This document shows, in pieces, positions 2,144-54,365 of a DNA stretch of 64,000 nt. A model generated the notes under the pieces. The model did not search any database. It had not been told where the DNA came from and was given only the letters and a program-made list of their open reading frames with translations. How positions within the stretch are numbered: position 1 is the first letter of the stretch; the number at the start of each line of letters is the position of its first letter. Origin of the DNA: Agromyces humatus. GTDB lineage: Bacteria > Actinomycetota > Actinomycetes > Actinomycetales > Microbacteriaceae. The stretch is from NCBI RefSeq assembly GCF_021228295.1, contig NZ_JAJQPD010000001.1:124001-188000 (forward strand), given 5' to 3'. A program made the translations under genes and the position numbers.

Positions 2144-3019
2144 GTGAAGTTCGCGCACCTCAGAGCCGAAGGCCAGACGACCCCTCGACTCGCGGTGGTC
2201 GTCGGCGAAGCCGCCCTCTTCCTCGACGAGGTGATGCCCGAGGCGCCGCGCGACCTGCAAGACCTCATCGAGCGCGGTCCCCAGGGGCTCGACGCGGTTC
2301 GCGAGGTCGTCGATGCGAACGGCCACATCGGCGCCGAGCTCACGCCGGTCGCCGAACTGCGTCATTCGTCGGCGGTGCTCCGGCCCGCCCAGGTGCTGGC
2401 GATCGGCGCGAACTACGCCGCCCACGCCTCCGAGCTCAAGCTGCGCTCCGAGACCGCCATGACGGTGTTCTCCCTGTGGCCGAACTCGCTCACGGCGCAC
2501 GGCGCCACGACCACGTGGCCCGGCGACCTCGCGACCCAGGTCGACTACGAGGCCGAGCTCGGCGTGATCATCGGCCGGCCGGCTCGTGCAGTGCATACCC
2601 GCGACGCACTCGACTACGTCTGGGGCTACACCGTCGTCAACGACATCACCGCACGCGACATCCAGTTCAGCGAGGCGCAATGGTCGCGCTGCAAGTCCTT
2701 CGATGGTTTCACCCCCACCGGACCCGTCGTGGTCACCGCCGACGAGATCGCCGACCCGCAAGACCTGTGGCTCACGACGAACCTCGACGGGCACATCCTG
2801 CAAGACGCCTCGACCAACGAGATGGTACGCCCGGTGGCCGACATCATCGCCTACCTCTCACGGTCAGCGACGATTCCGCCGGGCACCCTCATCTCGACCG
2901 GCAGCCCCGGCGGCGCGGGCTACTCCCGCAATCCCCAGGTGTTCCTGCGCGACGGCTCGACCGTGACCGTGACGATCGAGGGCATCGGCTCGCTCACCAC
3001 GCACTGCCGCGTCCTGTAG
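2144..3019 (+). CDS. Fumarylacetoacetate hydrolase (FAH) family protein
   Basis: A protein of 291 aa with the full FAH fold: N-terminal domain, then the motif AIGANYAAHASEL (about residue 87), the acidic metal ligands in DYEAELGVIIGR, and NDITARDIQF. FAH-family enzymes use Mg2+ or Mn2+ to cleave or decarboxylate acyl-pyruvate-type compounds. The family includes acylpyruvases and 2-hydroxyhepta-2,4-diene-1,7-dioate isomerases, so the substrate is open. A TAGCCT -10 box at 2132-2137 is followed by 6 nt and the GTG, so the mRNA should be leaderless. It stands alone, convergent with aspartase. It could serve a distant aromatic or sugar-acid pathway. Confidence 0.85.
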   Translation: MKFAHLRAEGQTTPRLAVVVGEAALFLDEVMPEAPRDLQDLIERGPQGLDAVREVVDANGHIGAELTPVAELRHSSAVLRPAQVLAIGANYAAHASELKLRSETAMTVFSLWPNSLTAHGATTTWPGDLATQVDYEAELGVIIGRPARAVHTRDALDYVWGYTVVNDITARDIQFSEAQWSRCKSFDGFTPTGPVVVTADEIADPQDLWLTTNLDGHILQDASTNEMVRPVADIIAYLSRSATIPPGTLISTGSPGGAGYSRNPQVFLRDGSTVTVTIEGIGSLTTHCRVL

Positions 3020-3116
3020 TCGACCCGCAGCGCGACATCGACCGTTCTCCCGAGTTCGCCGCCGAGCGAGAGGGTGAGGATCATCGGCAGGGCGTGGGCG
3101 CGGCGAGCGGGGCGAC

Positions 3117-3161
3117 CGGCCGTGGGTGCGTTCAGGCGATGGAGCACGCCACGCACGGCCG
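3117..3161. terminator. Hairpin between convergent FAH-family and aspA genes
   Basis: CGGCCGTG at 3117-3124 pairs exactly with CACGGCCG at 3154-3161, with further imperfect pairing inside the loop. It lies in the 152-bp space between two convergent genes and could terminate both. There is no U-tract, which is common in GC-rich actinobacteria. Nothing else is visible in this gap. Confidence 0.45.
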
Positions 3162-3171
3162 CGTCATCTCG

Positions 3172-4683
3172 TCACTCGCTCGGTTCCCCCTGCATGTCGA
3201 TCACCGGAATCGCCATCGTGATCGGGCGCATGCCCGACAGCTTCGACGGCGAGAGTTGCGCCGTGACGTCTTCACGGGTCATGAGCCCCGACTCGACCAC
3301 GAGATCGGCGACCGGACGACCGCTCGCCAACGCCTCCTTCGCGAGCGTCGCCGCCGCGGTGTAGCCGATGAACGGGATGAGCGCCGTGATGACGCCGACG
3401 CTCGACGCGACCATCGCGTCGAGGCGCGCGGTGTTCGCGGTGATGCCGTCGACGCAATTGACCCGAAGCGTCCAGCATGCCTGGCGCATCCACGTGATCG
3501 ACTGCAGCAGCGAGTGCGCGATCACCGGCTCGAAGGCGTTGAGCTGCAGCTGGCCGCTCTCGGCCGCCATCATGACGGTGACGTCGGCCCCGGCGACCGC
3601 GTAGGCGACCTGGCTCACGGCCTCGGGGATCACGGGGTTCACCTTGCCCGGCATGATGCTCGACCCCGCCTGCTTGGGCGGCAGGTTGATCTCGCCGAAC
3701 CCGGCCTGCGGCCCGGATGACAGCAGGCGCAGGTCGTTGCAGATCTTCGAGAGCTTGATCGCGCTGCGCTTGAGCGCACTCGAGAACGTCATGAAGACAC
3801 CCGTGTCGCTGGTGGCCTCGATGAGGTCGGGCGCCGACTCGAGGCGCATGCCCGTGATGGCGCTGAGGTGGGCGACCGCGGCGGCGGTGTAGCCGGGCTC
3901 GGCCGTGATGCCGGTGCCGATCGCCGTGGCGCCGAGGTTCACCTCGGACAGCAGCTTGATGGTCTCGCGCAGCCGGTCGACGTCTTCGCCGAGCGTCGTG
4001 GCGAAACTGTGGAACTCCTGCCCGAGCGTCATGGGCACGGCGTCCTGGAGTTGGGTGCGGCCGACCTTGAGGACGTCGTTGAACTCGCGGCCCTTTCGCC
4101 CGAAGGCGATGCGCAGCTGGTCGAGCTCGGTCAGCATCGTACGCAGCGAGAACGCCATCGCGAGCTTCACCGCGGTCGGGTACGTGTCGTTGGTGGACTG
4201 GCTGCGATTCACGTCGTCGATGGGATGCAGCACGTCGTAGCGGCCCTTGGCGTAGCCGCCGATCTCGAGCGCCAGGTTCGTGATGACCTCGTTGGCGTTC
4301 ATGTTGGTCGATGTGCCGGCGCCGCCCTGGATGACTCCGACGACGAACTGGTCGTGCAGTTCTCCGTCGATCACGCGCTGGCAGGCCTCGTCGATCCACG
4401 CCGCCTTCTGCTGCGTGAGCACGCCGAGCTCTCGGTTGGCACGTGCGGCGGCCTGCTTGACCGAGGCGAGTGCGATGACGAGTTCGGGGTAGACCGAGAT
4501 CGGCCGCTTCGAGATCGGGAAGTTCTCGAGTGCCCGCATCGTGTGCACGCCCCAGTACGCATCGGCGGGCACCTCGACCATGCCGAGCGAATCACTCTCG
4601 GTGCGCGTCGGCGCACCGGGCGCGGCGAGGTGCTCGCTCGCACCGAGACGGCGTTCGGCTGAAGGGTATGCGGGCGTCGACAC
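3172..4683 (-). CDS. aspA: Aspartate ammonia-lyase (aspartase)
   Basis: Catalyses reversible L-aspartate to fumarate plus ammonia, in the cytoplasm, linking amino-acid nitrogen to the TCA cycle. It is about 503 aa with the fumarase/aspartase signature GSSIMPGKVNPVIPE, plus GGAGTSTNMNANEV and STNDTYPTA substrate-binding segments and the start VPADAYWGVHT. I chose GTG 4683 because it has GGAG eight bases upstream. A longer in-frame ATG at 4767 starts only 4 nt after the TAGGCT -10 box (4772-4777) and would lie upstream of the expected transcript start. The first ~30 residues are a variable Pro/Ala/Arg stretch. Fumarase shares the superfamily, but the VPADAYWGVHT and aspartase-type residues favour AspA. 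Confidence 0.92.
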   Translation of the reverse strand: MSTPAYPSAERRLGASEHLAAPGAPTRTESDSLGMVEVPADAYWGVHTMRALENFPISKRPISVYPELVIALASVKQAAARANRELGVLTQQKAAWIDEACQRVIDGELHDQFVVGVIQGGAGTSTNMNANEVITNLALEIGGYAKGRYDVLHPIDDVNRSQSTNDTYPTAVKLAMAFSLRTMLTELDQLRIAFGRKGREFNDVLKVGRTQLQDAVPMTLGQEFHSFATTLGEDVDRLRETIKLLSEVNLGATAIGTGITAEPGYTAAAVAHLSAITGMRLESAPDLIEATSDTGVFMTFSSALKRSAIKLSKICNDLRLLSSGPQAGFGEINLPPKQAGSSIMPGKVNPVIPEAVSQVAYAVAGADVTVMMAAESGQLQLNAFEPVIAHSLLQSITWMRQACWTLRVNCVDGITANTARLDAMVASSVGVITALIPFIGYTAAATLAKEALASGRPVADLVVESGLMTREDVTAQLSPSKLSGMRPITMAIPVIDMQGEPSE

Positions 4684-17620: not shown

Positions 17621-18481
17621 CTACTTGAGGCTCTTGGTGTGCCAGACGGTCTTCGTCTCGGTGAACGCGGTGATGCGACCGAGCGTCGGCGCTGCCGCGT
17701 CGGCGCCGCCCTCTGGGCGCAGCACGCGCTTCAGCGTGTCGGCCGCGTCGATCTCGAGCGAGACCCAGTCGAGATCGCCGGCGCCGACGAGATCGAGCGC
17801 GTTGACATCGGAGTGGCTCGCGAGCCACGGCGCGATCTCGGCAGGCGAACCCGTGAGCACGTTGACGACGCCCCCGGGGACGTCGCTCGTCGCGAGCACC
17901 TCGGCGAGGCTGATCGCCGAGAGTGGGTACCGTTCGCTCGCCACGATGACGGCCGAGTTGCCGGCGACGAGCGCGGGTGCGAGCGCCGAGACGAACCCGA
18001 CGAGCGAGGAGTCCTGCGGCGCGATGATCGCCACGACGCCCGTGGGCTCGGGCACCGAGATGTTGAAGTACGGACCGGCCACCGGGTTGGCGTTGCCGGT
18101 GACCTGCGCGAACTTGTCGGCCCACCCGGCGTACCAGACCCAGCGATCGATCGCCTCGTCGACCTGGGCGGATGCCACGGCACGCGACGCCCCCTCGGCC
18201 TCTTCGATCTCGGCGACGAACTGGGCCCGCCGACCCTCGAGGAGCTCGGCGATGCGATAGAGCACCTGCCCACGGTTGTACGAGGTCGCGCCCGACCAGC
18301 CGGAGACCGCGCCGCGCGCCGCGACGACCGCGTCGCGCGCGTCTTTGCGGGATGCCTTCGCGACGTTCGCGAGGAACGCGCCGTCGGCGCGGAGCACCTC
18401 GTAGGTGCGCCCTGATTCGCTGCGCGGGAACGCGCCGCCGATGTAGAGCTTGTAGGTCTTCGGCACGGCGAGGCGGCTCAC
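17621..18481 (-). CDS. Half-length aldehyde dehydrogenase lacking the catalytic domain
   Basis: A protein of 286 aa, where normal members have ~480-500. It retains the N-terminal NAD-binding half: KLYIGGAFPRSESGR, then WYAGWADKFAQVTGN and PTGVVAIIAPQDSSLVG. The nucleotide-binding pattern is altered and there is no counterpart of the catalytic Cys region or of the C-terminal oligomerisation strand. The last ~20 residues (FTETKTVWHTKSLK) look evolved rather than a frameshift remnant. It starts at GTG 18481, overlapping the stop of the full-length enzyme by 4 nt. It is probably a non-catalytic partner or regulator of that enzyme, or it binds nucleotide only. Confidence 0.82.
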   Translation of the reverse strand: MSRLAVPKTYKLYIGGAFPRSESGRTYEVLRADGAFLANVAKASRKDARDAVVAARGAVSGWSGATSYNRGQVLYRIAELLEGRRAQFVAEIEEAEGASRAVASAQVDEAIDRWVWYAGWADKFAQVTGNANPVAGPYFNISVPEPTGVVAIIAPQDSSLVGFVSALAPALVAGNSAVIVASERYPLSAISLAEVLATSDVPGGVVNVLTGSPAEIAPWLASHSDVNALDLVGAGDLDWVSLEIDAADTLKRVLRPEGGADAAAPTLGRITAFTETKTVWHTKSLK

Positions 18482-20091
18482 TTCGCTGCTCCCTTCTTCG
18501 CGGGCGTGGCTGATCGCGTGGTCTTCGCGGCATCCTTGGTCTCGATACGCGGCTTCGCCGCTCGTCGCCCAGCGGTGGCGGGCTTCGCCGCTGCTCGACC
18601 GGCGGAAACCGACTTGGCGCCTGTTCGACCGGCGGTGACCGCCGCCTGGCCGACCGGCGCGGGCGTCAGGTAGGCGGCAAGGCCGTGGCGGCCGCCCTCG
18701 CGCCCATAACCCGACTCCTTGTAGCCGCCGAAGGGGCTCGACGGGTCGAACCGGTTGAACGTGTTGGCCCAGATCACCCCGGCGCGGAGCTTGTCGGCGA
18801 CAGCGAGGATGCGGCTGCCCTTGTCGGTCCAGATGCCGGCCGAAAGCCCGTAGGGCGTGTTGTTCGCCTTGGCGATCGCCTCGGCGGGCGTGCGGAACGT
18901 GAGCACCGAGAGCACCGGGCCGAAGATCTCTTCACGCGCGATGCGGCTCGAGGTCTGCACGTTCGTGAAGATCGTCGGCGCGTACCAGAACCCGTTCTCG
19001 GGGATCTCGCACGGCACGCTCCACCGGTCGGCGCCCTCTGCGACGCCGATGTCGCTCAGCTCGCGGATGCGCTCGAGCTGCTCGCGCGAGTTGATCGCGC
19101 CGATGTCGGTGTTCTTGTCGAGCGGGTCGCCGAGACGCAGGGTCGAGAGGCGCAGCTTCAGGCGCTCGACGACCTCGTCGTGGATGTTCTCTTGCACGAG
19201 CAGTCGCGAGCCGGCGCAGCACACATGGCCCTGGTTGAAGAAGATGCCGTTGACGATGCCCTCGATGGCCTGGTCGATCGGTGCGTCGTCGAACACGATG
19301 TTCGCCGCCTTGCCGCCGAGTTCGAGCGTGGCCTTCTTGTCGGTGCCCGCGATCTGCTTCGCGATCGCCCGGCCGACCGCGGTCGAGCCGGTGAACGCGA
19401 CCTTGTCGACGTCGTCGTGGGCGACGAGGTTCGCGCCGGTGTCGCCAGCGCCGGTGATGATGTTCACGACCCCGGGCGGCAGGTCGGCCTGCTGCAGGAT
19501 CTCGGCGAAGATGAGCGCGGTGAGCGAGGTCGTCTCGGCTGGCTTCAGCACGACGGTGTTGCCCGCGGCGAGCGCGGGTGCGATCTTCCACGAGAGCATC
19601 AGCAGCGGGAAGTTCCACGGGATCACCTGGGCGGCGACGCCGTGCGCGCGGGGGCCTGCGCCGAGTCCGGCGTGGTCGAGCTTGTCGGCCCACCCGGCGT
19701 AGTAGAAGAACCACGCCGCGACGAGCGGCACGTCGACGTCGCGCGACTCCTTGATCGGTTTGCCGTTGTCGAGCGACTCGGCGACCGCGAGTTCACGCGC
19801 GCGCTCCTGCACGAGCCGGGCGATGCGGAACAGGTACTTGCCGCGGTCGCGACCGCTCATCTTCGACCACGTGCGGTCGTACGCGCGACGCGCGGCGGCG
19901 ACGGCGTCGTCGACGTCGGCCGCATTCGCGTTCGCGATCATCGCGATGCGCTCTTCGCTCGCCGGCGAGATTGTCTGGAACGGGGTGCCGCGACCCTCGA
20001 CGAATTCACCGTCGATGAAGAGGCCGTACTGGTCGCGCAGCGACAGGATCGCCCGCGACTCGGGGGCGGGTGCGTATTCGAGGAAACTCAT
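18478..20091 (-). CDS. Aldehyde dehydrogenase with repetitive basic C-terminal tail
   Basis: A protein of 537 aa. The NAD(P)-dependent ALDH core shows VIPWNFPLLMLSWKIAPALA, VAFTGSTAVGRAIA, LELGGKAANIVF (general-base Glu), NQGHVCCAGSRLL (catalytic Cys near 290) and EEIFGPVLSV. Placed directly after deoC, it probably oxidises the acetaldehyde released by DeoC to acetate. After the normal end (about residue 480) the frame runs on through three tandem decapeptides of the form (T/S)AGRxxAKx and an Ala/Lys-rich end, coded by repeat DNA. The stop overlaps the next gene by 4 nt. The RBS is a weak GAAGGG. Confidence 0.9.
   Translation of the reverse strand: MSFLEYAPAPESRAILSLRDQYGLFIDGEFVEGRGTPFQTISPASEERIAMIANANAADVDDAVAAARRAYDRTWSKMSGRDRGKYLFRIARLVQERARELAVAESLDNGKPIKESRDVDVPLVAAWFFYYAGWADKLDHAGLGAGPRAHGVAAQVIPWNFPLLMLSWKIAPALAAGNTVVLKPAETTSLTALIFAEILQQADLPPGVVNIITGAGDTGANLVAHDDVDKVAFTGSTAVGRAIAKQIAGTDKKATLELGGKAANIVFDDAPIDQAIEGIVNGIFFNQGHVCCAGSRLLVQENIHDEVVERLKLRLSTLRLGDPLDKNTDIGAINSREQLERIRELSDIGVAEGADRWSVPCEIPENGFWYAPTIFTNVQTSSRIAREEIFGPVLSVLTFRTPAEAIAKANNTPYGLSAGIWTDKGSRILAVADKLRAGVIWANTFNRFDPSSPFGGYKESGYGREGGRHGLAAYLTPAPVGQAAVTAGRTGAKSVSAGRAAAKPATAGRRAAKPRIETKDAAKTTRSATPAKKGAAK
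18538..18636. repeat. REP-like palindrome and 30-bp tandem repeats inside the ALDH 3' end
   Basis: GGTCTCGATACG at 18538-18549 and GCTGCTCGACC at 18590-18600 match the two arms of the element also seen at 42583 and 54334. Between them GGCTTCGCCGCT occurs twice, 30 bp apart. 18547-18636 holds three 30-bp units, each starting or ending with a CTGxTCGACCGGCGG-like block. Because 30 is divisible by three, the protein gains three decapeptide repeats instead of frameshifting. Confidence 0.75.
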
Positions 20092-42582: not shown

Positions 42583-42637
42583 GGTCTCGATACGGCCCTG
42601 ACGGGCCTACTCGACCGACGAGAACAGCTATTCGACC
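42583..42637. repeat. REP-like palindrome overlapping the CoA-transferase B stop
   Basis: A complete element runs from GGTCTCGATACG (42583-42594) through the hairpin GGCCCTGACGGGCC to CTACTCGACC (42607-42616). A second partial copy (42621-42637, ending CTATTCGACC) contains, in reverse, the TAG stop codon and last codons of the CoA-transferase B gene (42628-42630). Confidence 0.75.
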
Positions 42638-44972: not shown

Positions 44973-45715
44973 CGCGCGCTCCATCCGCCGTCGATGACGT
45001 AACTCGCGCCGGTCGCCATGCCGGCCTCGGGGCTCGCCAGCCACAGCGCGAGGCTCGCGACCTCGGCGGGCTCGACGAGGCGCTTGATCGCCGACTCGGT
45101 GAGCATGATCTTCGGCAGCACCTCGTCTTCGGGGATGCCGTGCAGACGAGCCTGGTCGGCGATCTGCTTCTCGACGAGCGGCGTGCGCACGTACCCGGGG
45201 TTGATGCAGTTCGAGGTGACGCCGTGCGGGCCGCCCTCGAGGGCGGTGACCTTCGACAGCCCCTCGAGGCCGTGCTTCGCGGCGACGTACGCCGACTTGA
45301 ACGGCGAGGCGCGCAGGCCGTGCACGCTCGAGATGTTGATGACGCGGCCGAATCCGCGCTCGTACATGCCCGGCAGGGCCGCGCGGATGAGCAGGAACGG
45401 CGACTCGAGCATGAGGCGCAGGATGAGCGAGAACCGCTCGGGTTCGAACTGCTCGATCGGGCGCACGTGCTGGATGCCGGCGTTGTTGACGAGGATGTCG
45501 GCGTCGAGCGTGAGGTCGGCGAGCGCGCCGGTGTCGCCGAGGTCGACCTGCCAGGCCTCGCCGCCGACCGCGCGAGCGACCTGCTCGGCGGCCTCGCCGT
45601 TCAGGTCGGCGATCACGACGTGGGCGCCGGCCGCGGCGAAGGCGCGCGCGCACGCCTCGCCGATGCCGCTCGCGCCGCCGGTCACGACCGCCCGCCGTCC
45701 GCTCAGATCGGTCAC
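44969..45715 (-). CDS. bdhA: 3-hydroxybutyrate dehydrogenase (SDR)
   Basis: A protein of 248 aa, NAD-dependent. SDR motifs: TGGASGIGEA (12-21), NNAG (77-80), Ser129/130, Tyr143 and Lys147 in SSVHGLRASPFKSAYVAAKHG's span. Bdh-type substrate residues are visible in NAGIQHV, in the His of SSVHGL and in CINPGYVRTPLVEKQI, which is closely matched by known 3-hydroxybutyrate dehydrogenases. It oxidises (R)-3-hydroxybutyrate to acetoacetate. GTG 45715 overlaps the TetR stop by 4 nt. Confidence 0.88.
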   Translation of the reverse strand: MTDLSGRRAVVTGGASGIGEACARAFAAAGAHVVIADLNGEAAEQVARAVGGEAWQVDLGDTGALADLTLDADILVNNAGIQHVRPIEQFEPERFSLILRLMLESPFLLIRAALPGMYERGFGRVINISSVHGLRASPFKSAYVAAKHGLEGLSKVTALEGGPHGVTSNCINPGYVRTPLVEKQIADQARLHGIPEDEVLPKIMLTESAIKRLVEPAEVASLALWLASPEAGMATGASYVIDGGWSAR

Positions 45716-46395
45716 GATTCCTCCTTCTGGGGCGCGTCGGCGCGCCGCGTTCCTGCGGTCCCAGGGCGCCCGAGGGCTCCCTCGATGAACCGCATCATCT
45801 CGTCGAGCACGTGCTGGGGCACCTCACGGGTGCCGCTCGCGGTGGGGTCTGCGCCGGCGCCGGGCGCCGCATCGGGGTCGCCCCAGAGCACCCAGCGCAT
45901 GCCGATCATCTCACCGATGCCCATGAGTGCCCACGCGGCCACAGTCGGGTCGATATCACTGATCTCACCGTCGTCGAACGCGTCGCGGAGGCCGTCGATG
46001 TACCCCTCGACGATGCGCGTGTAGTGCAGTCGAAGCGCATCGGGCGACACCTGCTCGGCCTCGCGCACGACACGGTAGAGGCCCGGGTGCTCGGCCGTGA
46101 AGCGGAAGAACGCGGCGAAGCCCGCCCGCTCGGCCTCGAGCCGGCTCGAGGCGCCGCGCGCGCCCTCGCTCATCGCCTGACGCACGCGATGGTTGAGATC
46201 TTCGACGAGCTCGTTGAAGATCGCGAGCTTCGAGTCGAAGTAGAGGTAGTAGGTTCCCTGTCCGACGCCGGCGACATCGGTGATGCGAGAGACGGATGCC
46301 TCGTGGTACCCGTTGGCCGCGAACACGTGCTCTGCGGCCTCGAGCAGCTTGCGCCGGGTCTTCTCGCCCCGTGCCGTGCGGGGTGCCGCGCTCAT
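45712..46395 (-). CDS. TetR-family regulator of the ketone-body operon
   Basis: A protein of 227 aa. The N-terminal helix-turn-helix (about 12-55) reads EKTRRKLLEAAEHVFAANGY then ITDVAGVGQGTYYLYFDSK. The C-terminal ligand domain is helical with no known signature. It lies inside the operon, overlapping the ligase stop (ATGA) and the dehydrogenase start (GTGA), so it is co-expressed and probably autoregulatory. Its likely operator is the inverted-repeat region at 53012-53037. An acyl-CoA or the transported acid is the probable inducer. Confidence 0.88.
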   Translation of the reverse strand: MSAAPRTARGEKTRRKLLEAAEHVFAANGYHEASVSRITDVAGVGQGTYYLYFDSKLAIFNELVEDLNHRVRQAMSEGARGASSRLEAERAGFAAFFRFTAEHPGLYRVVREAEQVSPDALRLHYTRIVEGYIDGLRDAFDDGEISDIDPTVAAWALMGIGEMIGMRWVLWGDPDAAPGAGADPTASGTREVPQHVLDEMMRFIEGALGRPGTAGTRRADAPQKEES

Positions 46396-48101
46396 CGCGC
46401 GTCCTCCTCACCCGCGGGTTGAGGAGGTCGCGCAGCGATCGTCTCGAAACCCGGTCGCCCGCGGGGTGTCTTTCGAGACGCATCCTCCTTCGTCGGACGC
46501 TCCTCAACCCGCTCGATGTTCGTCTCGCGGCTTCGAGACGCATCCTCCGTCGTCGGACGCTCCTCAACCGGCGGCTGCGAGCTCTCGACGAGCACGCGTC
46601 GCAGCACCTTGCCCGCGGTCGAGCGCGGCAGCGCGTCGACGAAGTGCACCTCGCGCGGCACCTTGTAGCGCGCGAGCGAGCCGGCCGCGAACTCGAGCAG
46701 TTCCGCGGCGTCGGTCGCGCGCCCGCGGGTGACGACGACCCACGCCACGCCGGCCTCTCCCCACCGCTCGTCGGGGACCCCGGCGACGGCGACGTCGGCG
46801 ACGGCCGGGTGCCCCATGAGCACGGCCTCGACCTCGGCGGGCGCCACGCCTTCGCCGCCCGAGATGTAGATGTCCTTGATGCGGTCGACGATCGTGAAGT
46901 AGCCGTCGGCGTCGCGCCGCACGAGGTCGCCGGTGCGCAGCCAGCCGTCGACGAGCGTCGCCTCGGTCGCGGCCGGGTCACGGAAGTAGCCGGCGAACAC
47001 CGATGGCCCGTGCACGAGCAGCTCACCCTCGGCCTCGCCCTCGAGGTGCTCGCCGGTGACCGGATCGGCGACGGCGACATCGACGTGCGGGTACGGCTTT
47101 CCGGCCGAGCCCGCGCGGCCGAGCGCGTCGTCGTCGGGAAGGCAGAGCACGTTGGGCGACGCCTCGGTGAGTCCGTAGCCCTGGGTGAGCGCGATGCCGC
47201 GGGCGTGCCACGTGCGCAGCAGCGCCGGAGGCATCGGCGCACCGCCGACGATCGTGTGCACGAGGCTCGACAGGTCGGTGCGCTCGAAGTCGGGATGCTG
47301 CGCGAGGAACAGGTAGTTGGCGGGCACGCCCATCATCGTCGTGATGCGTCGCTCTTGAATGAGGTGCAGCACGCGTGCCGGGTCGAAGGTGCGTTCGAGC
47401 ACCACCGTCGCCCCGGTCCACCACGCGAGCAGCGGCTGGATGTTCCACCCGCCGACGTGGTACTGGGGCAGCACCGCGAGCACGCTGTCGCCGGGACCGA
47501 TCTCGGCGATGCGCGAGAACGAGAGGTTGGTCCAGAAGCAGTTGGCGTGGGTGAGCACCGCGCCCTTCGGCTTCGCCGTGGTGCCCGAGGTGAAGATCAT
47601 GAGCAGGGCGTCGTCGTCGGCGACATCGCGAACGGCGGCGGATGACCCGTGCCGCGGGTCGCCCGCGGGCGCGGGAACGTCGGACTCGACGCCGTGCGCG
47701 CCGAGCGGCGCGGTCGGGATGCGGCGCGCGAGTCGCGAGAGCGTCGCCTTCGCGACCGACTCGAACTCGGTCTCGACGAGCAGCAGCGCCGGCTCGGCGA
47801 TCTCGAGCTGCTCGGCGAGCTCGCGCGGCGCGAGCCGCCACGACAGCGGTACGAGCGTGAGGCCGGCTTTCGCGCACGCGAAGAAGAGCACCACGTGGTC
47901 GGAGCTGTTGCCGGTGATCGTGGCGACGCGATCGCCGATCACATAGCCCGCGGCGCGCAGGGCCACGGCGAGGCGCTCGGCGCGGACGTCGAGCTCGCGG
48001 TAGCTGAGGACGACGCCGCGGTCGTCGATCGCGATGCGTTCGGGGGTCGCCCGGGCCCGATCGCGGGTCCAGCGACCGAGGGTGTGCAGACCGTCAGGCA
48101 T
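46392..48101 (-). CDS. Acyl-CoA ligase (AMP-forming) with repeat-coded tail
   Basis: A protein of 569 aa in the ANL superfamily. Motifs: TSGTTAKPKGAVLTH (phosphate loop), GYGLTEASPN, GWLRTGDL and the catalytic Lys in PRSTAGKVLRRVL. It activates a carboxylic acid to its acyl-CoA; the length and sequence suit a short or medium-chain acid. The core ends near residue 509, and a 60-residue charged tail follows with VEERPTTEDASR and VEERPTKEDASR 20 residues apart, coded by REP-like DNA. The stop overlaps the TetR start by 4 nt, and the ATG overlaps livM by 8 nt. Confidence 0.88.
   Translation of the reverse strand: MPDGLHTLGRWTRDRARATPERIAIDDRGVVLSYRELDVRAERLAVALRAAGYVIGDRVATITGNSSDHVVLFFACAKAGLTLVPLSWRLAPRELAEQLEIAEPALLLVETEFESVAKATLSRLARRIPTAPLGAHGVESDVPAPAGDPRHGSSAAVRDVADDDALLMIFTSGTTAKPKGAVLTHANCFWTNLSFSRIAEIGPGDSVLAVLPQYHVGGWNIQPLLAWWTGATVVLERTFDPARVLHLIQERRITTMMGVPANYLFLAQHPDFERTDLSSLVHTIVGGAPMPPALLRTWHARGIALTQGYGLTEASPNVLCLPDDDALGRAGSAGKPYPHVDVAVADPVTGEHLEGEAEGELLVHGPSVFAGYFRDPAATEATLVDGWLRTGDLVRRDADGYFTIVDRIKDIYISGGEGVAPAEVEAVLMGHPAVADVAVAGVPDERWGEAGVAWVVVTRGRATDAAELLEFAAGSLARYKVPREVHFVDALPRSTAGKVLRRVLVESSQPPVEERPTTEDASRSRETNIERVEERPTKEDASRKTPRGRPGFETIAARPPQPAGEEDAR
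46416..46570. repeat. Cluster of three REP-like elements in the acyl-CoA ligase 3' end
   Basis: One inverted copy (46416-46452, GGGTTGAGG...CTCGAAACCC) and two direct copies (46471-46510 and 46531-46570, TTCGAGACGCATCCTCC...CTCCTCAACC) spaced exactly 60 bp apart and differing at only a few bases. All are read in frame as the ligase tail. No transposase or RAYT gene lies in the window. Confidence 0.8.
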
Positions 48102-53093: not shown

Positions 53094-54278
53094 ATGAGCA
53101 TCCCCGACGTCGTCATCATCGCTGGGGCACGCACCCCGTTCGCCCGCATCAACGGCAACCTCGCGAATCAGACGGCGGTCCAGCTCGGCACCGTCGCGAT
53201 CCGCGGCGCACTCGAGAAGGCCGGGGTCTCCCCCGACGACGTCGATGCCGTCATCATGGGCCAGGTGCTGCAGGCAGGGGCCGGCCAGAACCCCGCCAAG
53301 CAGTCGGCCGTGGCGGCCGGCATCCCGTGGCGCGTCCCGGCGACGACCCTCAACAAGGTGTGCCTCTCGGGCCTCGTCGCCATCACCGACGCCGCACGCC
53401 TCATCCGCCTCGGCGAGGCATCCGTCGTCGTCGCTGGCGGCCAGGAGTCGATGACCAACGCTCCCCACCTGCTGCCCGGTTCGCGGGCAGGTCACGTCTA
53501 CGGCTCGGTCGAGATGCTCGATCACGCCGCCGCCGACGGGCTCACCGACGCGTTCGACCACGACTCGATGGGCGCCTCGACCGAGCGCTTCAATGCCCGC
53601 TACGGCATCGAGCGTCCTGAACAGGACGAGATCGCCTCCGCCTCGCACGTGCGCGCCGGCGCCGCACAGGCCGCCGGGGTCTTCGCCGACGAGATCGTGC
53701 CCGTCGAGATCCCGCAGCGCAAGGGCGATCCGGTCGTCGTCGACGCCGACCAGGGCGTTCGGCCCGACTCCACCGTCGAGGTGCTCGCGAAGCTGCGCCC
53801 GGCATTCACCGCCGACGGCTCGATCACCGCGGGCAACTCGTCGCCGCTCTCCGACGGCGCCGCCGCCGTGGTGGTCGCGAGCCGCGAGTGGGCCGAGTCG
53901 AAGGGCCTGCCGTGGCTCGCCCTCGTCGGCGCCGCCGGCCAGGTCGCCGGTCCCGACAACTCGCTGCACTCCCAGCCGTCGAACGCCATCGCCGCGGCCC
54001 TCGAGAAGGGCGGTGTCGCGGCATCCGACCTCGACGTCGTCGAGATCAACGAGGCCTTCGCCGCGGTCTCGCTGCAGTCCACCCGCGACCTCGACCTCTC
54101 GAGCGACATCGTCAACATGCACGGCGGCGCCATCGCGGTCGGCCACCCGATCGGAGCCTCGGGCGCGCGCCTCGCACTGCACGCGGCGCTCGAGCTCTCG
54201 CGTCGGGGCAGCGGCAACGCCGCGGTCGCGCTGTGCGGCGGCGGCGGCCAGGGCGAGGCACTGCTGCTCTCGCGCTGA
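53094..54278 (+). CDS. Acetyl-CoA C-acetyltransferase (thiolase)
   Basis: A protein of 394 aa. Nucleophile Cys90 is in [22 protein letters not shown] carries the catalytic His and [14 protein letters not shown] the second Cys. In degradative mode it splits acetoacetyl-CoA with CoA into two acetyl-CoA. It faces the ABC/ketone-body operon across a 128-bp control region, which fits the last step of that pathway. AAGGAG lies 10 nt before the ATG. Confidence 0.92.
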
Positions 54279-54292
54279 TCGCGGCCCTCGTC

Positions 54293-54365
54293 GGTCGAGC
54301 AGGCGCGAAGCGCCGTGTCGAGACCCGGTCACCGGTCTCGATACGCGCCTTCGCGCTACTCGACC
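54293..54365. repeat. Inverted pair of REP-like elements after the thiolase gene
   Basis: The first copy (54293-54325) runs GGTCGAGC...GTCGAGACC. The second (54334-54365) runs GGTCTCGATACG...CTACTCGACC in the opposite sense. They are 8 bp apart, as in bacterial interspersed mosaic elements. The pair fills most of the gap before ltrA and may stabilise or terminate the thiolase mRNA. Confidence 0.8.

Follow-up and report, generated by a model that had tools for sequence, protein, structure and literature searches.

In-frame REP-like repeats in an Agromyces acyl-CoA ligase and a repeat-flanked GIY-YIG nuclease that may mobilise them

The ligase–TetR junction

The window, a 64,000-nucleotide stretch of the genome of the soil bacterium Agromyces humatus, contains an AMP-dependent acyl-CoA ligase gene (46392..48101, minus strand, an ORF of 569 aa) whose stop overlaps the start of a gene for a TetR-family regulator (45712..46395, minus strand, 227 aa) by the 4 nt ATGA, as the first-pass annotation had stated. 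Such 4-nt overlaps join several genes of this neighbourhood, which also encodes a branched-chain amino acid/urea-type ABC transporter, a 3-hydroxybutyrate dehydrogenase-like SDR, a hydrolase, and 3-oxoacid CoA-transferase subunits. In the ligase, the Pfam domains PF00501 and PF13193 cover residues 14-373 and 423-498, respectively, and everything past residue 498 lies outside domains. The core of the protein reaches up to Lys498, which is invariant among 28 aligned sequences, and the tail beyond it is coded by an array of REP-like elements.

Elements 1 and 2 of this array (46530..46568 and 46470..46508, minus strand, 39 nt each) lie in the sense orientation, are separated by a 21-nt linker (46509..46529, minus strand), and are read as VEERPTTEDASR and VEERPTKEDASR, respectively. 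Element 3 (46417..46451, plus strand) is inverted relative to the gene; the ligase ORF reads VEERPTTEDASR...VEERPTKEDASR and then ...GFETIAARPPQP, all in one frame. As a whole, the array has the order (+)(+)(-) and a length of 153 nt, which is divisible by 3. The two direct copies and the inverted third described earlier are present (46532-46572, 46472-46512, and 46417-46451), with 95% identity over 41 nt between the direct ones. What had been called an exact 60-bp period is a single 60-bp spacing between these two copies, the third being inverted. The array stands ahead of the last native ligase codons, which are retained 3' of it (46392..46416, minus strand) and bear both the TetR Shine-Dalgarno sequence (GAGGAGG, 46403-46409) and the ATGA overlap (46392-46395).

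Other elements in the window belong to a second family, B (GTCGAGTAG...GTATCGAGAC). One of them (42584..42615, minus strand) lies downstream, between two same-strand genes, and a B-type pair in plus-then-minus order (54294..54364) lies downstream of the gene at 53094-54278. In addition, an ALDH gene (18478-20091, minus strand) extends 4 nt into the gene that follows it, and near 18520-18600 its tail reads ...KPRIETK... through what appears to be a degenerate B-type element end (GTATCGAGACC).

REP-like families and their in-frame copies in proteins

The family A palindrome has the form GTTGAGGAG...GTCTCGAAAC. Its strict core, GTTGAGNAG-N4-30-GTCTCGAAAC, occurs 104 times in the 4.04-Mb genome, compared with 0 occurrences of the pattern read backwards. 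The repeats in the ligase therefore go beyond chance, and the suggestion that they are REP-like and have further copies genome-wide is borne out. Family B (GTCGAGNAG...GTATCGAGAC) has 54 strict copies, again with 0 for the control. The genome of the sister species, Agromyces cavernae, holds 87 A copies, and at least one strict A match was found in 23 of 199 Microbacteriaceae genomes. In stretches from A. humatus and its sister, the strict A element measures 25-39 nt in 177 of 181 copies. Among 24 distinct 33-nt copies, compensatory stem changes were counted in 25 cells, against 10.2 in shuffles, none of 500 shuffles being as high. Predicted folds of 12 elements mostly leave just G and AAC unpaired at the element ends; an unpaired terminal GTAG or CGTC tag was seen in none of them, and GTAG lies within the 5' arm of B.

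To describe where the elements lie, we surveyed 45 stretches around strict-core sites plus the window with a looser pattern, which yielded 14 B elements and 140 A elements. Intergenic positions account for 108 of the 140 (81 in codirectional, 22 in convergent, and 5 in divergent gene pairs), and the remaining 32 fall within called ORFs. The median distance from an array is 13 nt to gene 3' ends (68 edges) and 57.5 nt to 5' ends (48 edges). A plus-then-minus order is found in 35 of 52 multi-element arrays, and 43 of the 44 plain A. humatus arrays with mixed orientations follow (+)n(-)m. The elements thus show these traits expected of REPs: high copy number, a 20-40 nt palindrome, a mostly extragenic position near 3' ends, and inverted dimers. 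At six homologous sites (L045:5730; L051:3371, 4342, and 9509; L055:13219; L074:2509), the element family differs between A. humatus and its sister (A/B, B/A, or a mix), as if one had replaced the other in place.

The coding of gene ends by such repeats, which had been proposed for this genome, was also observed. At 9 of the 68 array edges facing a gene 3' end, the TGA stop is part of the element, and in-frame elements occur in 19 called ORFs. Gene calls came from a home-made codon-score finder, whose starts are approximate and which overlooked the L049 nuclease ORF described below; N-terminal in-gene elements are accordingly uncertain except in CysD and CysN. At least nine of the genes with in-gene elements are supported by domains or orthologs. 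Pfam domains flank or span the insert in six of them (ClpC, a LuxR-type response regulator, an MFS protein, a LysR-type regulator, an SMC_N-domain ATPase, and a TPP enzyme), and ortholog comparison backs the in-frame elements of the ligase, CysD, CysN, and ClpC. Elements with arms of either family were found, in different species, in 13 of 25 ClpC loci and in the N-terminal part of CysD in 7 of 25 loci, and the CysN insert of A. humatus corresponds to an empty site in its sister. The elements thereby behave like protein-coding palindromic elements (RPE-like), being inserted in frame in unrelated proteins and missing from their orthologs, and Agromyces proteins contain many such insertions, the ligase array among them. 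In the TPP-enzyme ORF (L044:5317-7317, minus strand), a repetitive DASRNPDASRNPDGSRNP stretch lies beside element sequence; it is possibly a repeat expansion inside an insert.

In-frame insertion into a length-variable ligase tail

Comparison of the junction in related genomes, which the first-pass annotation had proposed, separates two groups. A. cavernae (G240, L088) has an identical array layout, frame, and length (569 aa), and all three of its copies fit the strict pattern. The array is missing from 27 other Agromyces ligase orthologs, in which the tail after the core measures 15-54 aa, compared with 68 aa in A. humatus and A. cavernae. Whatever the tail length, the ligase gene overlaps the following gene by 4 nt in 28 of 29 Agromyces loci, A. 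humatus and its sister included, and in 78 of 80 orthologs of a wider set that spans many genera and partly overlaps these 29 loci. The ligase tail is therefore an in-frame insertion of the array into a length-variable linker, common to A. humatus and A. cavernae. Of the earlier proposal that the gene grew through the repeats without breaking its coupling to TetR, the intact overlap stands, and the growth is better described as an insertion into a variable tail, since the native end follows the array.

The shared array also bears on what the tail is. Since A. cavernae has it in the same frame, the ligase frame is no sequencing slip, and the possibility that a sequencing error or a misplaced stop conceals a ligase that really ends before the repeats is negligible, the more so as the conserved overlap follows the array. 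It is very improbable, too, that selection maintains the tail as a functional part of the protein. Its frame and equal length in two species would fit such a role, but between A. humatus and its sister dN is 0.085 and dS 0.038 in the tail (12 nonsynonymous and 2 synonymous changes), against dN of 0.020 and dS of 0.256 in the core (22 nonsynonymous and 87 synonymous changes), and the tails of other orthologs are unlike the array-coded one. Among 214 candidates, a search with the ligase tail alone found no protein relatives at E<=10. The tail shows no sign of constraint as protein, and its coding content drifts. A further explanation holds that the array is kept as a controller of TetR translation. 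The 3' end of element 3 (CCUCCUCAACC) is complementary to, and may pair with, the Shine-Dalgarno region of TetR (GGUGAGGAGG), in which case only ribosomes that reach the ligase stop would go on to translate TetR. Folding predictions with 60-100 nt upstream leave the Shine-Dalgarno sequence nearly closed. With 60 nt, its unpaired probability is 0.001 in both A. humatus and its sister, against a wide spread in the orthologs, where one other among 79 rows (L123) also reaches 0.001; the local hairpin has a z of -3.8 in A. humatus and -4.4 in the sister, and removal of the array in silico raises the unpaired value to 0.21-0.40. With 150-300 nt upstream, however, the value shifts between 0.002 and 0.40, and these variable results from longer contexts weaken the idea. 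Moreover, among eight A. humatus genes with an element at most 45 nt upstream and a good Shine-Dalgarno sequence, the site is hidden in the ligase-TetR case alone, and the array, with an identity of 0.932 to its counterpart in the sister, does not stand out among 44 matched arrays. That element 3 hides the Shine-Dalgarno site is possible on this unstable prediction, and a controlling role for the array appears unlikely. As RNA unfolding is one proposed mode of translational coupling (discussed in PMC12548453), the idea would be testable.

A general tendency of arrays to hide Shine-Dalgarno sites was considered and rejected (P = 0.88). A special DNA-level constraint on the ligase array was likewise rejected on its ordinary identity among the 44 matched arrays; these are 44 of 79 arrays, with 34 unmatched and 1 at a contig edge, and, as the sister stretches were taken around her own elements, an unmatched array does not mean an absent one. 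The ligase array is most likely near-neutral. The selective loss of frameshifting insertions would be enough to explain why the ligase-TetR coupling is unbroken, and no finding here indicates that the repeats serve it.

A GIY-YIG nuclease between repeat arrays

The first-pass annotation had advised looking for a RAYT-type transposase. With the PF01797 profile, none was found in 41 Agromyces genomes or in 10 element-bearing genomes, whereas 5 of 14 control genomes match; the Y1/HUH tyrosine transposase that characterises REPtrons is thus missing from this search. Mobilisation as classical REP/BIME sequences by a RAYT is accordingly highly improbable, even though size, palindromy, copy number, inverted dimers, and a position after the stop match the REPs described in PMC3733652.

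A different enzyme gene accompanies the repeats. On contig C4 of A. humatus (L049:2479-3460, at about 395678-396659), four (+) A elements, a 94-aa GIY-YIG ORF (about 2915-3199), and four (-) elements form a unit of 982 nt. At this site the sister has just 34 nt, similar to a single decayed element; a deletion in the sister could account for the difference. A second GIY-YIG gene of the YVGS type lies near a contig start (L347; C11:1-835) with B-type elements flanking it, so that A. humatus has one nuclease with A-type arrays and one with B-type. Across 14 genomes, a PF01541 search gave 30 matches, of which 9 are small and of the YVGS type, 14 are long-frame, and 7 are neither. Small GIY-YIG genes lie between element arrays in 8 of 9 cases, compared with 0 of the 14 long-frame loci with an element (these we label uvrC on presumption only); of the other seven matches, the two inspected (L285 and L289) have no element.

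A profile built from the nine small YVGS-type proteins found the nuclease gene in 49 of 199 Microbacteriaceae genomes. We compiled 31 loci, 30 from this search plus the second A. humatus copy. Elements stand on both sides of the gene in 23 of them and on one side in 3; the other 5, G046 among them, have no A- or B-type element and carry an inverted repeat that exceeds those in all of 300 random window intervals, so that a flanking repeat of some kind is present in all 31. At the YVGS-type loci L298, L303, L308, L316, and L321, the flanks are different inverted repeats (e.g., GTTGAGCTTGTCGAAAC), which probably represent further element families. Elements of the A/B superfamily thus flank a small stand-alone GIY-YIG gene in many Microbacteriaceae. 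Phylum-wide, the profile matched 25 of 396 genomes; among 27 further loci, YVGS-type genes are flanked in 3 of 4 cases, the fourth falling just below threshold, whereas distant GIY-YIG loci (YTGY, YIGV, and similar types) are flanked in 1 of 23. Arm type clusters on the nuclease tree, with 6 changes against 9.6 in shuffles (5 of 500 as low), for 28 labelled rows of 36 in a tree of low support (2 starred of 33 inner branches). The nuclease occurs in 14 of 23 genomes with an A element and in 35 of 176 without (P = 8e-5, with no phylogenetic correction); these 35 lack a strict A element, though other arm types occur.

The small nuclease exceeds the PF01541 cut-off, and Y5, Y15, G17, R25, H29, and E62 are invariant among nine aligned proteins; we take these residues to have the catalytic roles ascribed to them. 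Relatives are abundant (7969 of 7999 scored candidates at E<=1e-12), and source names among the best 120 of the 7999 resemble "GIY-YIG nuclease family protein" or "putative endonuclease". UPF0213 stand-alone GIY-YIG proteins (PDB 1zg2 and 1ywl) and GIY-YIG homing endonucleases resemble the nuclease in domain and size; tyrosine, glycine, arginine, and glutamate positions of the domain are invariant among the nine. The distant GIY-YIG relatives differ from the YVGS type in mostly lacking flanking repeats. Three of nine nucleases weakly match a GIY-YIG homing endonuclease model in NCBIfam; around eight nuclease loci, no Rfam family reached its gathering score, including the group I intron typical of such homing endonucleases, and none of the nine matched a defence-system model.

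On these sequence comparisons, the stand-alone GIY-YIG nuclease may be the mobiliser of the repeats. The plain arrays have the (+)n(-)m polarity of the C4 nuclease unit and could be read as such units minus the gene. Elements are shared between the two; MITEs would be recognised by ends shared with an autonomous element together with a target-site duplication. We favour, with some confidence, the reading that the ligase tail arose by in-frame insertion of a REP-like array, with the nuclease as autonomous partner and the plain arrays as its nuclease-free relatives. Under such a model, the nuclease would cut palindromic elements or extruded hairpins, the break would be filled during repair with a copy of an array or of the entire unit, and insertions would persist in linkers when they keep the frame, or directly behind stop codons.

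The flanking arrays could instead mark the gene as a passenger that repeatedly landed in, or was captured by, REP arrays that spread otherwise, by recombination, replication slippage, or an unrecognised recombinase. Several observations fit this alternative or count against the nuclease model: the sister, despite its 87 A copies, has as PF01541 matches one long frame and one weak match (in the PF01541 search only); G162 and G128 carry elements without a detected nuclease, and G012 does so without a good PF01541 match; the copy number of arrays alone varies, as in L048, with seven elements in A. humatus and two in the sister; and the order of the flanks is cleanly (+) left and (-) right in only 11 of the 23 two-sided loci, with 12 mixed or alternating. 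Against a passenger, the association recurs across many genera and is absent or nearly so from the long-frame and distant GIY-YIG loci, arm type tends to track nuclease subtype, and only 2 of 145 genes of at most 250 aa in the REP-rich A. humatus stretches lie between (+) and (-) elements. We regard the passenger explanation as a serious but doubtful one. Our preferred reading, with the nuclease as autonomous partner, extends to a broader proposal on which we are evenly divided: a mobile system of a new class in Microbacteriaceae and some other actinobacterial families, in which REP-like palindromes would be spread by a small repeat-flanked GIY-YIG nuclease instead of a transposase, enzyme and repeat subtypes would co-evolve, and nuclease-free copies would seed protein linkers and operon junctions.

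Intragenic REPs and REP-coded gene ends are already known in other phyla, according to the accounts in PMC3733652 and PMC2229807. For the GTAG and CGTC REPs of Di Nocera et al. (2013, PMC3733652), ORF ends are reported to hold slightly over 10% of the intragenic repeats, and intragenic clusters to code 43-82 aa. As described there, these REPs share with the Agromyces elements short palindromes, dimers, a position near gene 3' ends, the supply of stop codons, and in-frame copies; they differ in arms and tags, and GTAG REPs pair with a RAYT, whereas the Agromyces elements pair with a GIY-YIG gene. The word "actinobacteria" does not occur in the main text of that paper. Rickettsia palindromic elements (Ogata et al. 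2000/2002, as summarised in PMC2229807) likewise lie in frame within many unrelated proteins; compared by description, they differ in host, and the passages of that summary covered here mention no nuclease partner. The REPtron or REPIN-RAYT system, as presented in PMC8266576 and PMC3116915, resembles the present one in having one enzyme gene tied to repeats, scattered inverted doublets, and enzyme/repeat co-evolution, but its enzyme is an HUH tyrosine transposase and the Agromyces candidate a GIY-YIG nuclease. Among the papers listed in literature searches, none pairs a GIY-YIG nuclease with REP sequences as judged from titles, abstract openings, and term counts, and those listed for the element sequence string deal with other organisms, many of them eukaryotic.

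For CGTC REPs, whose transposase is given as not known, PMC3733652 poses the spread of RAYT-less REPs as an open question. A repeat-flanked nuclease whose subtype tends to track the repeat type provides a concrete candidate enzyme, with which the question of how REPs spread becomes testable. The in-frame copies, in turn, show that core proteins, ClpC and CysD among them, recurrently gain in-frame linker segments from short repeats.
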